Shown here in pieces: positions 482 to 62,203 of a stretch of DNA of 64,000 nucleotides; positions within the stretch are counted from its first letter, which is position 1; the number at the start of each line of letters is the position of its first letter. Location of the stretch: positions 62,001 through 126,000 of the forward strand of contig NZ_JNFC01000023.1 in NCBI RefSeq assembly GCF_000756385.1. The letters run 5' to 3'. The notes beneath the pieces were generated by a model. The model ran no database searches, had not been told where the DNA came from, and saw only the letters and a program-made list of their open reading frames with translations. The stretch comes from Sphingopyxis sp. LC363. GTDB taxonomy: Bacteria; Pseudomonadota; Alphaproteobacteria; Sphingomonadales; Sphingomonadaceae. A program made the position numbers and the translations under genes.

Positions 482-655
482 ATGGGCAAGCTATGCGGGA
501 AGGGCGCTATGGTTCCCGCCTCGATGCGCCATCGGGTATCGCGTCTTTTCGCCGATGCTCCGGCCGGGAGCCCGGCGGAGTCGTGCCGCGGAGCATGTAA
601 GGGCTGCAGCTGGATGCTCCGATGCCATATCCGGTTTCCTGTTTCGACGGATCGA

Positions 656-2575
656 TTACAGGTCCATTGTAATTCTGGCCGCGATTTGTCGAGGCTGAAT
701 GTAGACGAAGGCATTGTCGCCCGCGACTTCCCAACCATAAGCGTTGAACAGGTTCGTGGCCTGGATACGAAAGACGGCGGTCGATCGGCCTATGGCGAAG
801 CGTTGGCGCAGTCCGATATTGACCGTTGTATAGGATGCGACGTCGACAAGGTTCAGCCTGTCCGCGGTGTTCCGCCCGACATGCTCGACGGTGGCATCGA
901 TTGAGGTCGGGGATGACGGCCACCGCCAATCGACGCTGGCGACGATCTTTCGCGACGGCACGTCGATCGGCCGACGGCCGATCGCGCCGGACGCGGCTTC
1001 GTCGCCCCTGACGCGTGCCCGGATAAACGACCCGCCCGCGACCAGCGTCAATCCGGGCGTGGGCGAACCGCTCAGCGACGCCTCTATTCCGCGGTGTCGC
1101 ACCACACCCAGCCGCCGGAAGAAATTACCTCCATCGACACCGAAATAAGGTCGTTCGATATCGAATGCACCCGCGATCAGCGTCATTCCGCCTGTACGCA
1201 ACTTCACGCCGGCATCGACTTGCCGCGTCCGGATCGCAGGCGGTGCCTCGTCGCGGTTCACCGCGGTTTCCGGCGCAACATCGCTCTCCTCCAGCCCGCG
1301 CGCGAAAGAAGCATAAAGCGATATCGCGGCGGCGAGATCGATCGTCGCGGTCGCGTTGATCAGCCACGGCGTATCGCGTGATTCGGGCGCGGGGCCGTTC
1401 GGCGTGGTCACCCGCTTGCTATAGTCGACCTTCTGCGCACCGATGCTGAATTGTCCGAGGCGCTGTACCCGCAGCTGATAGTCGAGACCGATCGACCATT
1501 GCCGAACGCGGTCGTTGGACTGCGCCGCGAAATCGAAGTCCGGCCGGGCGACATAATCGGCTTCTCCGAACGGTGCGGATCCCAGCGAGCGCCGGATCGA
1601 ACCGCCGTACCGCCGGTCTTGGGCGCGCCCGCGCGCGACGAGCTGGATGCGATGTTCGAAGGCACCGGTAGAGAAACTGCGCGCGACGCCCAGCTCGCCG
1701 CTTGTCGAAACGCCGGTCCGGCCCGGATAGGTGCTGACGATGCGGTCGGCCGGCGCCCCCAAGGGGGCGGCGCGCAGAAAGATATTGTGTCCCTCGCGCA
1801 CCGCGTTGTCCGACCGGAACAGTCCGGCGCGCACCGCAAAGCCGGCGATGCCGGTGCGGCCCATCGCGCCGAAGGTGTAGCGCTCGGTCTCGACATCCGC
1901 CCATTTCTGACCCAGAAACCGCCGCCGCGTCAGGCGGCCCGGCGTCTCCGCGCCGTTTCCCAGGATGATGGGATAGATGTCCTCGTCGGCGATGCGCGTG
2001 CGGCTTCCGAACAGCTTCAGATCGGTTCCGGCTGTGGGCCGCAAATGCGCGATCGCGGCGAGGTTGGTGATGTCGGCGTTGTTCCCCGAAGGATATTCGC
2101 TCCGGCTGAAGCTCGCGCCCCCTCCGAGGTTCAGCACGTCGTTTATCGGCAGTGCGGCGTCGATCTCGACCAGTGCACCGCCCCAGCTATTGGCCTGGAT
2201 CACGCCGCTCAACATCGCGTCCTCGCCGGGCGAACGAAGGCGATAGTCGACGACGCCCGATGGCGCCGGAAAGGGGTAGCTGACCGCCGAGGGGCCGACC
2301 CTGATCCGGTTGCCTTCGACAAGCCTGGGCGAAAAATCGCCTTGGCGGTCGAAATACAGGCCTTCGAGCCGCACATTACCGGCGTCGATCGGCGAGAAGC
2401 CGCGTACCGAGTTCGGACTGTAGATGCCGAGCGTTTCGCCGCCGTCGTTGGAACCGAACGCGTCCTCGGCGTCGGCGATCGCGTTGTCGTCCGCCCTCTG
2501 GGCGAACGCGGGTGAGTGAGCCGGTAGGGCGACAAGCGATGCGGCGATACCGGCTATAGTTCTGAATCGTGCCAT
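656..2575 (-). CDS. TonB-dependent outer-membrane receptor
   Basis: A 639-residue protein starting at ATG 2575. Residues 1-25 form a Sec signal peptide ending in PAHSPAFA. Then comes a short plug-like region (about 40-150) with the phrase NSVRGFSPIDAGNVRLEG, followed by a barrel of alternating aromatic strands. The C-terminus reads NLFNAYGWEVAG...RQIAARITMDL, a usual receptor ending except for a final Leu. An in-frame start 87 codons upstream would run into the divergent regulator and is rejected. Its divergent neighbour is a LysR-type gene, which suggests that regulator controls it. The ligand is unknown; siderophore, vitamin or plant compound are all possible. Confidence 0.85.
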   Translation of the reverse strand: MARFRTIAGIAASLVALPAHSPAFAQRADDNAIADAEDAFGSNDGGETLGIYSPNSVRGFSPIDAGNVRLEGLYFDRQGDFSPRLVEGNRIRVGPSAVSYPFPAPSGVVDYRLRSPGEDAMLSGVIQANSWGGALVEIDAALPINDVLNLGGGASFSRSEYPSGNNADITNLAAIAHLRPTAGTDLKLFGSRTRIADEDIYPIILGNGAETPGRLTRRRFLGQKWADVETERYTFGAMGRTGIAGFAVRAGLFRSDNAVREGHNIFLRAAPLGAPADRIVSTYPGRTGVSTSGELGVARSFSTGAFEHRIQLVARGRAQDRRYGGSIRRSLGSAPFGEADYVARPDFDFAAQSNDRVRQWSIGLDYQLRVQRLGQFSIGAQKVDYSKRVTTPNGPAPESRDTPWLINATATIDLAAAISLYASFARGLEESDVAPETAVNRDEAPPAIRTRQVDAGVKLRTGGMTLIAGAFDIERPYFGVDGGNFFRRLGVVRHRGIEASLSGSPTPGLTLVAGGSFIRARVRGDEAASGAIGRRPIDVPSRKIVASVDWRWPSSPTSIDATVEHVGRNTADRLNLVDVASYTTVNIGLRQRFAIGRSTAVFRIQATNLFNAYGWEVAGDNAFVYIQPRQIAARITMDL

Positions 2576-59046: not shown

Positions 59047-59436
59047 ATGTTCGATGTTGCGCCCACCGAGTTGCTGCTCGTCGTGGTGGTGGCCCTGGTC
59101 GTTATCGGCCCCAAGGACCTTCCCAAGGCGATGCGTTTCGTCGGCAAATGGATGGGGAAGGCGCGCGGGATGGCGCGCCATTTCCGTGCCGGGCTCGACA
59201 CGATGATGCGCGAGGCCGAACTCGAGGAACTCGAGAAGCAGTGGCGCGAGCAGAATGAGGCGATTATGCGCGAGTTTCCGCGCATCGACGATGTGAACGT
59301 ATCTCCAACGCCAACGCCCGCCTCGACGCCGGCGGTGGAGGCCAAGCCCCCAACCGAGATCGATACCGACGGGGCGGCTGCCGCCAACCCTCCCGAAACG
59401 CATGCGGTGCCGCCCAAGGACGGCCCGTTGCCATGA
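59047..59436 (+). CDS. tatB: Twin-arginine translocase subunit TatB
   Basis: A 129-residue protein with the TatB N-terminus MFDVAPTELLLVVVVALVVIGPKDLPKAMR, an amphipathic helix and a Pro/Ala/Thr-rich tail. The conserved Glu in the membrane helix and the GPKDLP turn are present. TatB and TatC form the receptor for twin-arginine signals. The stop overlaps the tatC start by 4 bp. Confidence 0.96.
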   Translation: MFDVAPTELLLVVVVALVVIGPKDLPKAMRFVGKWMGKARGMARHFRAGLDTMMREAELEELEKQWREQNEAIMREFPRIDDVNVSPTPTPASTPAVEAKPPTEIDTDGAAAANPPETHAVPPKDGPLP

Positions 59437-60242
59437 CCGAGGAAACGGCGTCTACTGCCGGGGACGAGGATGGCGGCGGCGGCAAGATGCCGCTCCTCGA
59501 TCATCTGATCGAACTGCGCTCGCGCCTGTTGAAGTCGCTTCTGGCAATCGGTCTCGCCTTCGGGGTTTGCCTCTATTATGCGAAGCCGATCTTCGGCATT
59601 CTGGTCCAGCCGCTCGTGCGCGCGGGGCAGGGCAAGCTGATATACACCCAGCTGTTCGAGGCCTTTTTCGTCGAGATCAAGGTCGCTTTGTTCGCGGCGA
59701 CAATGATCGCCTTTCCGGTGATCGCCAACCAGCTCTGGAAATTCGTCGCGCCGGGGCTTTATCGCAAGGAAAAGCGCGCGCTGCTGCCTTTCCTGCTCGC
59801 GACCCCGGTGCTGTTTGCGATCGGTGCGAGCTTCGCCTATTTCATCACCATTCCGATCGCGCTCAAATTCCTGCTCGGATATCAGGGCGACATCGGCGGA
59901 ATTACGCAGGAAGCGCTGCCGTCGGTCGGCAATTATCTGAGCTTTACGATGCAGTTCATCATGGCGTTCGGCATCGCCTTCCTGCTGCCGATCCTGTTGA
60001 TGCTGATCGAACGGTCGGGGCTGGTGACGCGCGAGCAGCTCGTGTCGGCGCGCCGTTATATGATCGTCGCGGCCTTTGCGATCGCCGCGGTGTTCACACC
60101 GCCCGACATCCTCAGTCAGCTGTTACTGGCGGTGCCGCTCGTATTTCTCTACGAAATGTCGCTCTTTGCGATCTGGTTTACCCAGCGCCGACGCAAAACA
60201 GGCGCCGAAGAGGCGCCTGTCGAGCCTCTCGAAGAGGCTTAG
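59433..60242 (+). CDS. tatC: Twin-arginine translocase subunit TatC
   Basis: A 269-residue protein with six membrane helices. Typical phrases are LLDHLIELRSRLLKSLLAIGLAF, QLFEAFFVEIKVALFAATMIAFPVIANQLWKFVAPGLYRKEKRALLPF and FGIAFLLPILLMLIERSGLV. It recognises twin-arginine signals such as those on the small exported protein at 40038. The last codons hold two stem-loops, one of which terminates the opposite-strand entericidin transcript. Confidence 0.97.
   Translation: MTEETASTAGDEDGGGGKMPLLDHLIELRSRLLKSLLAIGLAFGVCLYYAKPIFGILVQPLVRAGQGKLIYTQLFEAFFVEIKVALFAATMIAFPVIANQLWKFVAPGLYRKEKRALLPFLLATPVLFAIGASFAYFITIPIALKFLLGYQGDIGGITQEALPSVGNYLSFTMQFIMAFGIAFLLPILLMLIERSGLVTREQLVSARRYMIVAAFAIAAVFTPPDILSQLLLAVPLVFLYEMSLFAIWFTQRRRKTGAEEAPVEPLEEA
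60194..60220 (-). terminator. Terminator of the entericidin-like gene, inside tatC
   Basis: On the minus strand the stem ACAGGCGCC / GGCGCCTGT (60220-60212 and 60206-60198, loop TCTTC) is followed by TTTT (60197-60194). It lies 39 bp after the entericidin stop. The plus strand here encodes the tatC C-terminus. A second stem AGCCTCT/AGAGGCT is at 60223-60239. Confidence 0.8.
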
Positions 60243-60258
60243 GGTAAGATCCTTCAGA

Positions 60259-60387
60259 TCAGTCGATCGCGTCGCTGCCGGCCTGACCGACCGATTCGAT
60301 ATCCCGGCCGACACCCTTCACCGTGTTGCAACCAGCGACCAGAAAGCTGGCAAGCAGGGTAAGAAGGATAATACGAACACTCGACAT
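60259..60387 (-). CDS. Entericidin-like small lipoprotein
   Basis: A 42-residue protein with ATG 60387 and GAGGTGAAGA just upstream. The signal peptide MSSVRIILLTLLASFLVAGC ends in a lipobox with Cys 20. The mature part NTVKGVGRDIESVGQAGSDAID matches the entericidin A/B pattern (CNTxxGxGxDIxxxG). Entericidins are small envelope lipoproteins linked to stationary phase and stress. The upstream EcfG-type promoter fits that role. The leader between promoter and start is about 120 nt and holds two hairpins. Confidence 0.9.
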   Translation of the reverse strand: MSSVRIILLTLLASFLVAGCNTVKGVGRDIESVGQAGSDAID

Positions 60388-60412
60388 TCTTCACCTCATC
60401 AGAATTGAGCGC

Positions 60413-60507
60413 AAAATGGCCCGGCACGCTTCGAGGGGGGGGAGGGAATGCGAGCCGGGCCAATGTTGCTGAGCAGCGCTGCGGGGGGGCGATGACCGCT
60501 GCTCGAA
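60413..60507 (-). ncRNA. Candidate two-hairpin small RNA or structured leader with C-run loops
   Basis: Read on the minus strand, hairpin one has the stem GAGCAGCG/CGCTGCTC (60504-60497 and 60478-60471) with an 18-base loop containing seven C. Hairpin two has the stem GGCCCGGC/GCCGGGCC (60461-60454 and 60425-60418) with a 28-base loop containing CCCTCCCCCCC, and is followed by ATTTTG. The start is set just below the EcfG-type promoter, so hairpin one would begin at the very 5' end. Loops of this kind can pair with ribosome-binding sites, as in known alphaproteobacterial sRNA families. The 95-nt transcript is inferred; a mere 5' leader of the entericidin gene is the alternative. Confidence 0.55.
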
Positions 60508-60512
60508 TAGGA

Positions 60513-60538
60513 AACGACCGATGCGGCCGATAAGTTCC
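60513..60538 (-). promoter_or_regulatory. EcfG-type general stress promoter (GGAAC-N17-CGTT)
   Basis: On the minus strand GGAAC lies at 60538-60534 and CGTT at 60516-60513 with 17 bases between. This exactly matches the consensus for the alphaproteobacterial general-stress sigma factor EcfG. The expected transcript begins near 60507 and leads into the two hairpins and the entericidin gene. Confidence 0.8.
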
Positions 60539-60606
60539 CGAAAAAAATCGCAGGCATGAAATTTTTTTCGCCGCTTTTGAATCGCTCGGATTTCAGCGGC
60601 TTGGCT

Positions 60607-62046
60607 TCAAAGCGTGGTGAGTCCGCTGAGCACGGCGAGGCCCAGAAAGGCCAGGAAACCCATGGAATCGGTCGTCATCGTCACGAATATCGAGCTGGCG
60701 ACCGCGGGATCCTGATCGACACGGTCGAGCAGCAGGGGGATTGCGACCCCCGCGACCCCGGCGACGAAGATATTCACGATCATTGCCGCGGCGATCACGC
60801 CGCCGAGCATCGGGTTGCCGAACCAGAGCGCCGTCGCAGTGCCGGCGATGAGCGCAATCGTGCCGCCGTTGAGCAGCGCGATCTTCATTTCGCGCCAGAT
60901 CGCGCGCCAGCTGTTCGAATCGGTGAGCTGGTTCATCGCGAGGGCGCGCACCGTCACCGCCAGTGTCTGCGTCCCGGCGTTGCCGCCAACCCCCGCGACA
61001 ATCGGCATCAGCGCCGCGAGCGCGACCATATGTTCGATCGCGCCGCCGAACAGGCCGACGATCGTCGAGGCGACGAGTGCGGTGCCGAGGTTGGCGACGA
61101 GCCAGCGCACGCGCGCGCTGTACGTCTCGCGGATCGGCTCGTTGATGTCGCCGTCGCCGGCGCCCGACAGGCGGAGAATATCCTCGCCCGCCTCTTCCTG
61201 GATGATGTGGACAACATCGTCGACCGTGATCATGCCGACGAGGCGCCCCGCCTTGTCGACGACGGCGGCCGAGATCAGCGCATATTTCTGAAAGCGTAGC
61301 GCGACCTCTTCCTGATCCATATCGACCGGGATCAGCGTCTGTTCGCGCTTCATCACGTCACCGATCGCGATGTCGCGCGGAGTGCGCAATATCCAGCTCA
61401 GCTGGCAGGTGCCGACCGGGCGGTGCATCGGATCGACGACGAAGATTTCCCAGAAATCGCTGGCAAGCTCAGTATCTTCACGAAGGCGGTCGATGACATC
61501 GCCGACGGTCACATGTTCGGGCACTGCGACCAGGTCGCGCTGCATCAGGCGGCCCGCCGATTCCTCGGGGAAGGACAGCGCGTCCTCGATCGCGGCGCGA
61601 TCCTCGGGCTCCATCGCCTGAAGGACGGCCTGCTGCTCGTCCTCCTCCATATCCTCGATGATCGCGACCGCGTCGTCGGTGTCGAGTTCGGAGGCGAGTT
61701 CGGCCACTTGCTCCGGCGCGAGAAGATCGATCAATTCTTCGCGAACATAATCGTTCATTTCCGCGAGCACGTCGGCGGAAAGCATGTCGCCAAGCACCGC
61801 GGCGAGCATCGGACGCTCGTCGGTGCGCGCGAGTTCGAACAGATCGGCGATGTCGGCGGGATGGAGGCGGCCCACGCGCTCGCGCGCGGCCTCTCCCTCG
61901 CCGGCCTCGGCAAGTTCGATCACGTCGCGGACGAATTCGGGTTTCAGCCGATCATCCTCGTCGAGTTCGGTTTCGGGCTCGCGGCTGAGGGCATCGTCAA
62001 CAATCGCCATATCATCAGGCGGCAGGGAATCTTCGCGTTTGTCCAT
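60607..62046 (-). CDS. mgtE: Magnesium transporter MgtE
   Basis: A 479-residue protein. The N-terminal superhelical domain (about 30-165) has LHPADIADLFELARTDERPMLAAVLG and AIIEDMEEDEQQAVLQAME. Two CBS domains (about 165-285) include VGTCQLSWILRTPRDIAIGDVM and MITVDDVVHIIQEEAGEDIL. Five membrane helices follow, with MPIVAGVGGNAGTQTLAVTVRALA, the Mg2+ pore signature. GGGAGGA lies before ATG 62046. The cytoplasmic domains gate the channel according to internal magnesium. Confidence 0.95.
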   Translation of the reverse strand: MDKREDSLPPDDMAIVDDALSREPETELDEDDRLKPEFVRDVIELAEAGEGEAARERVGRLHPADIADLFELARTDERPMLAAVLGDMLSADVLAEMNDYVREELIDLLAPEQVAELASELDTDDAVAIIEDMEEDEQQAVLQAMEPEDRAAIEDALSFPEESAGRLMQRDLVAVPEHVTVGDVIDRLREDTELASDFWEIFVVDPMHRPVGTCQLSWILRTPRDIAIGDVMKREQTLIPVDMDQEEVALRFQKYALISAAVVDKAGRLVGMITVDDVVHIIQEEAGEDILRLSGAGDGDINEPIRETYSARVRWLVANLGTALVASTIVGLFGGAIEHMVALAALMPIVAGVGGNAGTQTLAVTVRALAMNQLTDSNSWRAIWREMKIALLNGGTIALIAGTATALWFGNPMLGGVIAAAMIVNIFVAGVAGVAIPLLLDRVDQDPAVASSIFVTMTTDSMGFLAFLGLAVLSGLTTL

Positions 62047-62203
62047 CGCGCGGTCCTCCCTGGTCTTGCGGCGTCCGAGCCTTCCCCTAGAGCGGCCATG
62101 CTCCGATGGCAACGCCGTGACGGACCCTTTCGGCATTTAGAGCGTGGCCTTGGGCGCCGCGTCCGTCTATGGCACCGCCAAACCCGACCATAGGAGTAAC
62201 AAT

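Follow-up and report, generated by a model that had tools for sequence, protein, structure and literature searches.

A candidate small RNA gene of the general stress response in Sphingopyxis and other sphingomonads

An element on the minus strand of the window, the 64,000-nucleotide (nt) stretch of Sphingopyxis sp. LC363 DNA analyzed here, very probably encodes a trans-acting small RNA (sRNA) of the general stress response (GSR), as judged from its sequence, its relatives, and its genomic surroundings. The element and its neighbors comprise the following features, listed in the direction of the minus strand.

60607..62136, minus strand: mgtE magnesium transporter, upstream on the same strand (Pfam MgtE, NCBIfam TIGR00400)
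60534..60538, minus strand: GGAAC, -35 element of an EcfG (sigma-EcfG)-type promoter (mean identity of 0.994 over 69 Sphingopyxis loci)
60513..60516, minus strand: CGTT, -10 element, 17 nt after GGAAC and ending 8 nt before stem 1
60411..60504, minus strand: predicted sRNA of about 92 to 95 nt (covariance-model match)
60471..60504, minus strand: hairpin 1, 8-bp perfect stem with C7 in loop GTCATCGCCCCCCCGCAG (sequence, folding, covariation)
60504-60497 and 60478-60471, minus strand: stem 1 arms GAGCAGCG and CGCTGCTC, 8 bp, perfect
60463..60470, minus strand: linker AGCAACAT, whose GCAA is able to pair with UUGC in the tail
60417..60462, minus strand: hairpin 2, proposed intrinsic terminator, 9-bp outer stem plus 3-bp inner stem with C8 loop (sequence, folding, covariation)
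60461-60454 and 60425-60418, minus strand: stem 2 arms GGCCCGGC and GCCGGGCC, 8 bp, perfect
60411..60417, minus strand: tail ATTTTGC, proposed 3' end (sequence; conservation falls beyond the tail)
60259..60387, minus strand: entericidin EcnA/B family lipoprotein, 42 amino acids (aa), downstream gene (Pfam PF08085, 26.1 bits, cutoff of 23.3)
59433..60242, plus strand: tatC, convergent, downstream (Pfam TatC, NCBIfam TIGR00945)

Two tandem hairpins behind an EcfG-type promoter

A sequence-only reading of this DNA had noticed two perfect 8-bp stems in series, with C runs of at least seven in the loops and TTTT after the second, and these are confirmed at a level far above chance. Their folding energy corresponds to a z score of -4.66 over 112 nt and -4.78 over 94 nt, and none of 200 dinucleotide shuffles reached equal stability at either length. 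The boundaries proposed in that reading, 60507-60413, are right to within about 3 nt, but hairpin 2 has more than a plain loop: a mismatch, CGC/GCG pairs, and an inner loop with C8 follow inward of the outer stem. An additional pair (U60462-A60417) extends stem 2 to 9 bp.

A sequence pattern for hairpin 1 that includes the C run retrieved at least 119 loci from a named genome collection, with 18 of the listed loci in Sphingopyxis and 101 elsewhere. Among these listed matches, the promoter pattern GGAAC-N16/17-NGTT ends 8 to 12 nt before stem 1 in 117 of 119 loci, compared to 55 of 11377 control windows, and the distance from promoter to stem 1 is 8 to 9 nt in 115 of the 117. The two listed loci without NGTT have CATT in the same place. 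The promoter is also present in 32 of 33 other-genus loci that were found by a covariance model (R1, below), and the -35 element of the window matches that of GGAAC-N16-CGTT, the motif described for the GSR of S. granuli TFA (PMC7083833). The transcription start that the earlier reading had placed at an EcfG promoter is supported both by the presence of this element and by its near-fixed spacing in the listed relatives.

Hairpin 2 is GC rich, as expected of a terminator, and is followed by four U residues and then GC. The number of T residues in the 10 nt after the hairpin averages 4.4 in the 17 of 18 listed Sphingopyxis loci that were measured and 4.9 in 72 of the 101 listed loci from elsewhere. 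Because the U tract is short and can pair in part with the linker, hairpin 2 may terminate poorly. It was absent from the output of a simple terminator scan of 59500-61500, presumably because its loop exceeds the 8-nt loop limit of the scan. The possibility that the element is a small open reading frame (ORF) instead of an RNA was rejected because of indels in the C run (6, 7, or 8 C in loop 1), which oppose coding.

Conservation within Sphingopyxis

A 286-base query matched 76 of the 80 genomes of the same genus, its own included, among 148 genomes searched; five other genomes of the same family matched via the entericidin gene only. In the 75 matching Sphingopyxis genomes that were examined (G049 was left out), a pattern fixing the stem arms identified the complete RNA in 70, with 41 distinct sequences. 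This pattern fits 70 of 71 complete copies, and L076 (genome G078) holds a complete but diverged copy. Identity was measured on 69 rows selected by the same pattern, with L068 excluded from both this measure and alignment A1 on account of its inverted inner loop.

Over these 69 loci, whose stem arms are fixed by the selection, the RNA slice (60505-60412) has a mean identity of 0.980, and 65 of its 94 positions are invariant. The corresponding values are 0.674 for the promoter spacer slice, 0.857 for the entericidin coding slice, and 0.663 for the 24 nt that follow the tail. Conservation tracks the borders of the RNA.

Some Sphingopyxis assemblies behave unusually at hairpin 2. Draft contigs of genomes G012 and G065 stop in the C run of its loop, one of G030 stops just before that run, and one of G011 stops in the 5' arm of stem 2, so that the four contig ends (L078-L082) look as if hairpin 2 halts assembly. 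In L068 (genome G076, positions ~655-753, minus strand), the outer stem of hairpin 2 is normal but its inner part is inverted, with 13 G replacing the C run; this is either a misassembly or a genuine inversion between the two arms of the inner stem.

Covarying stems and C-rich loops

Covariance model R1 was built from 41 sequences and model R2 from 43. The alignment restricted to Sphingopyxis (A1) has 5 double-changed cells, its sequences being too constant to say much. Alignment A3 includes only 11 of the 41 A1 rows and omits L128 and L129, R1 matches that resemble ordinary terminators, as well as L117, whose RNA is identical to that of L116. Stem 1 occurs as GAGCAGCG, GGATAGYG, GGATAGCA, GGACGGCA, and other variants, with a matching 3' arm each time.

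On 42 distinct rows, 96.7% of the cells are paired (86.0 in shuffles and 32 to 43 in slid versions), and 14 of the 23 pairs change on both sides (9.0 in shuffles and at most 3 in slid versions). There are 93 double-changed cells (21.3 in shuffles and at most 16 in slid versions), and the covariation score is 0.338, versus 0.159 for shuffles. None of 500 shuffles reached the values observed for pairing, double changes, or score; 124 of the 500 reached the observed number of further pair types. The shuffles ignore relatedness; the slid versions keep it and still fall far short.

Non-Watson-Crick cells number 68, consisting of 37 G-U, 6 A-C, and 25 other mismatches, with the A-C cells and other mismatches confined to three inner pairs. 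The preponderance of G-U over A-C cells (37 versus 6) points to an RNA of the minus strand. Both loops hold a C run of at least 6 in all 43 rows.

Distribution across the Sphingomonadales

Model R1 matched 48 of 296 genomes of the order. Of 396 genomes of the order, R2 matched 127 at E <= 0.01 and 113 at E <= 1e-5. The 127 belong to 24 of 84 genera, all within one family (f1), and two of them have two matches each. When R2 was applied to 385 genomes of the class, two matches fell outside family f1, both weak. The sequence-only reading had proposed such a search of the Sphingomonadales, together with the preservation of the stems by compensating changes as a test of its RNA; homologues were recovered, and their stems covary.

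The listed loci come from Sphingomonas, Sphingopyxis, Sphingomicrobium, Stakelama, Hephaestia, Sphingosinicella, Rhizorhabdus, Polymorphobacter, or higher sphingomonad groups, apart from six assigned just to Alphaproteobacteria, Proteobacteria, or an uncultured bacterium. Stakelama and Polymorphobacter were confirmed as Sphingomonadales, an order to which we take the other six genera to belong as well.

The tatC region was inspected in 18 genomes of the family, of which 16 had no earlier match at the element and two (G015 and G163) had weak ones. Within the loci examined, 16 of the 18 have no R2 match near tatC. Genome G163 carries a diverged copy of the RNA with an EcfG promoter. In the small-genome Sphingopyxis G015 (L432, 1204-1289), the hairpins are kept, but loop 1 has only C4 and no GGAAC promoter can be recognized, making decay possible. 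In genome G331 (L128, 1001-1078), an unrelated reading frame is followed by a hairpin that resembles a terminator and has a CCTCCCCCCCC loop, and C-rich terminator loops may serve elsewhere in the family.

Position at the general stress response locus

The GSR switch consists of HWE or HisKA2 kinases together with NepR and PhyR (PMC7083833). Outside Sphingopyxis, the predicted RNA gene forms the end of the core GSR locus, with phyR, nepR, and a kinase gene all directly upstream in 67 of the 71 listed loci with enough sequence. As counted by homology searches, a histidine kinase is the next gene upstream in 92 of the 101 listed loci (89 of the 95 with at least 600 nt upstream), nepR precedes the kinase on the same strand in 74 of the 78 with 2000 nt upstream, and a divergent phyR occurs in 67 of the 71 with 2500 nt upstream. 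Pfam assigned the representatives tested to PhyR (PF22029, PF22233), HisKA_2 (PF07568), and NepR (PF18557) and reported no ATPase domain for the kinase representatives. This fits the PhyP kinase of S. melonis, for which a degenerate CA domain is described (PMC5964349), and the HisKA_2 kinase may be a PhyP. In L166, L169, L184, and L234, the RNA is kept and phyR, nepR, and the kinase are all missing, representing further partings from the stress locus.

None of these GSR neighbors is present at the 18 listed Sphingopyxis loci, all of which have mgtE upstream, a gene that is upstream in none of the 101 others. The upstream gene ends ~90 to 110 nt before stem 1 in all 18 listed Sphingopyxis loci and mostly 50 to 110 nt before it in the other listed loci. 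Downstream, 94 of the 119 listed loci have a tatC homologue on the other strand. The genome of the window has two nepR loci with phyR beside them, and neither contains a homologue of the HisKA_2 kinase or an R2 match. In this genome, the predicted RNA, entericidin, and tatC are parted from the nepR loci, a natural rearrangement in which the promoter and sequence of the RNA persist after separation from the stress locus.

Relation to the entericidin gene

A downstream entericidin was detected at 17 of the 18 listed Sphingopyxis loci and at 70 of the 101 other listed loci; the 31 without a detected entericidin include some contig ends. In Sphingomicrobium lutaoense (G235), the sole PF08085 match is ~98 kb from the RNA. 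GGAAC occurs between the RNA and entericidin in 68 of the 70 listed non-Sphingopyxis loci with entericidin, and in 61 of those 68 it is followed after 16 to 17 nt by CATT (e.g., L130). The pattern GGAAC-N16/17-CATT is found in 5 of 10853 control windows, although the CATT test was set post hoc, after the regions had been inspected, and an earlier count requiring NGTT gave 0. The CATT of the entericidin promoter is consistently unlike the -10 element of the RNA promoter, which is mostly CGTT.

In Sphingopyxis, ~120 nt separate the start of stem 1 from entericidin, and a second EcfG-type promoter between the two is found in none of the 17 listed loci with entericidin (GGAAC is present in 2 of the 17 intervals, both without a -10 element). 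Given the entericidin's own promoter elsewhere and the distant entericidin in G235, the predicted RNA is not an entericidin leader by origin; in Sphingopyxis, entericidin seems to rely on the promoter of the RNA. In S. granuli TFA, ecnAB (SGRAN_1922) is part of the GSR regulon (PMC7083833). It may be the same gene as the downstream entericidin here, but two PF08085 matches occur in 2 of 5 Sphingopyxis genomes tested.

These neighborhoods bear on three proposals of the sequence-only reading. A separate short RNA gains support from the loci in which entericidin either was not detected or has its own promoter, and a role in stress from the adjacent phyR, nepR, and kinase genes of other genera. 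Expression of entericidin by readthrough is plausible in Sphingopyxis but does not extend to other genera, most of which have a separate entericidin promoter.

Alternative explanations

It is improbable that the element is only a structured 5' leader of the entericidin mRNA, an attenuator or translational control element with no independent RNA. Such a leader would account for the missing second promoter in Sphingopyxis (0 of 17 listed loci) and for the place of ecnAB (SGRAN_1922) in the S. granuli TFA GSR regulon (PMC7083833), but not for the 31 of 101 listed loci elsewhere without a detected entericidin (some of them contig ends), the ~98 kb in G235, or the GGAAC ahead of entericidin in 68 of 70 listed loci, 61 with CATT at 16 to 17 nt. 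If the element were the 3' untranslated region or the terminator of the gene before it (mgtE in Sphingopyxis, the histidine kinase elsewhere), it would have no regulatory role. Although that gene ends within the short distances given above and a GC-rich hairpin 2 is followed by U, the RNA persists behind different upstream genes, and a terminator has no need of two C-run hairpins or of an EcfG promoter 8 to 9 nt before stem 1, making this explanation very improbable.

We consider it scarcely credible that the element acts as DNA, as a palindromic protein-binding site or cruciform, and not as RNA. The two palindromes, the four Sphingopyxis contigs that end inside hairpin 2, and the apparently inverted inner loop of L068 are all compatible with such a site, which, however, requires neither the 37 G-U versus 6 A-C cells nor an almost fixed distance from promoter to stem. 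An RNA that is real but serves as a sponge or protein-binding RNA, engaging a C-binding protein or a G-rich RNA in place of pairing with mRNAs, is unlikely. It would be in line with the finding of no conserved mRNA target among 80 G7 regions and 27 ftsW loci; against it stands the analogue GsrN, for which pairing of the C-rich loop with the katG leader was demonstrated by compensatory mutations (PMC5869019).

Proposed function and search for targets

In the trans-acting sRNA model, sigma-EcfG would start the RNA at ~60504-60506 under stress, and transcription would terminate at ~60413-60411, at hairpin 2 and the short U tract behind it. The C loops would act as seeds for pairing with G-rich segments of mRNAs, which by analogy may include ribosome-binding sites, and pairing would either block ribosome binding or open a leader, as GsrN does on katG. 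In Sphingopyxis, the start of the RNA probably also feeds entericidin through partial readthrough.

The pattern GGGGGGN{3,10}ATG occurs 108 times in the genome, versus 26 for the reversed pattern, with long runs counted more than once. G7 sites were listed in seven genomes, and 80 regions from six of them were examined: all sites of G000 and G034 other than the sRNA, all those of G056 and G061, 12 of G013, 11 of G047, and none of G148. An ORF of at least 45 aa is present in 42 of the 80 regions. These ORFs form four clusters, two of them within one genome; the remaining two are a short frame resembling part of a glyoxalase-type protein and an ftsW-like gene, names that have no family search behind them. 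As a target, ftsW was rejected: over 27 loci, the G run lies in apparent codons 3 to 4 after an upstream start and is often just G5, falling below G5 in two. These G-run searches (80 G7 regions in six genomes and 27 ftsW loci) yielded no convincing conserved target.

A broader proposal seems to us evenly balanced between right and wrong. The elements would constitute an undescribed RNA family that is the Sphingomonadaceae counterpart of GsrN, set within a core stress locus of phyR, nepR, a PhyP-like kinase, the RNA, and entericidin; a two-seed C-loop RNA would provide a wide posttranscriptional arm of the GSR through G-rich translation starts; and in Sphingopyxis, relocation and promoter loss would have created a dual-output unit, RNA plus entericidin, from one stress promoter.

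Comparison with known RNAs

Neither the window element nor 18 relatives matched an Rfam family at gathering score, and no description of the RNA was found in the full-text literature searched, whose scope ended short of supplementary tables and subscription papers. The best subthreshold Rfam match is ar14 (RF02344; 31.9 bits, E = 0.00011, gathering score of 58.8 not reached), an alphaproteobacterial sRNA that likewise has tandem hairpins with C-rich loops. The ar14 alignment, however, takes the promoter as its first hairpin, with nonstandard pairs, and the ar14 loops are CUCCUCC-like as opposed to the plain C runs here.

Within the genus, SuhB of Sphingopyxis granuli TFA is also a trans-acting sRNA that is highly conserved in Sphingopyxis; it is 61 nt long, is raised at high growth rate, and acts on thnR with Hfq, with EcfG control unmentioned in the available text (PMC6563040). 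For the window element, the SuhB Rfam model gave no match at gathering score and is missing from the list at E <= 5. The four sibling RNAs SisA-D of Caulobacter share a 10-mer and have a sponge RNA, and the available text mentions neither an EcfG promoter nor C-run loops (PMC12559287).

The best reading, by analogy, is that of a general-stress sRNA that is the putative sphingomonad counterpart of GsrN. GsrN of Caulobacter crescentus is made by an EcfG-type sigma factor, and its six tandem C residues pair with G-rich targets, including katG (PMC5869019). It is also stabilized by Hfq and cleaved by endonucleolytic processing. Like GsrN, the predicted RNA has a sigma-EcfG promoter directly upstream, recognized here from sequence, and a C-rich loop near its 5' end; unlike GsrN, it has a second C-run loop, in the 3' hairpin. 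By BLASTn, relatives of GsrN are limited to Caulobacteraceae, and Erythrobacter litoralis (Sphingomonadales) is drawn in the same study without an apparent gsrN-like gene (PMC5869019). GsrN relatives are typically located near ecfG, nepR, or phyR, with C. crescentus gsrN itself an exception that lies elsewhere (PMC5869019); the RNA described here resembles the former outside Sphingopyxis (67 of 71 listed loci) and the latter in Sphingopyxis (0 of 18 listed loci). EcfG-controlled sRNAs have been proposed to be prevalent in Alphaproteobacteria (PMC5869019), and this family offers, for many sphingomonads, a candidate in the same kind of place as the GsrN relatives that comes with both a covariance model and a promoter.
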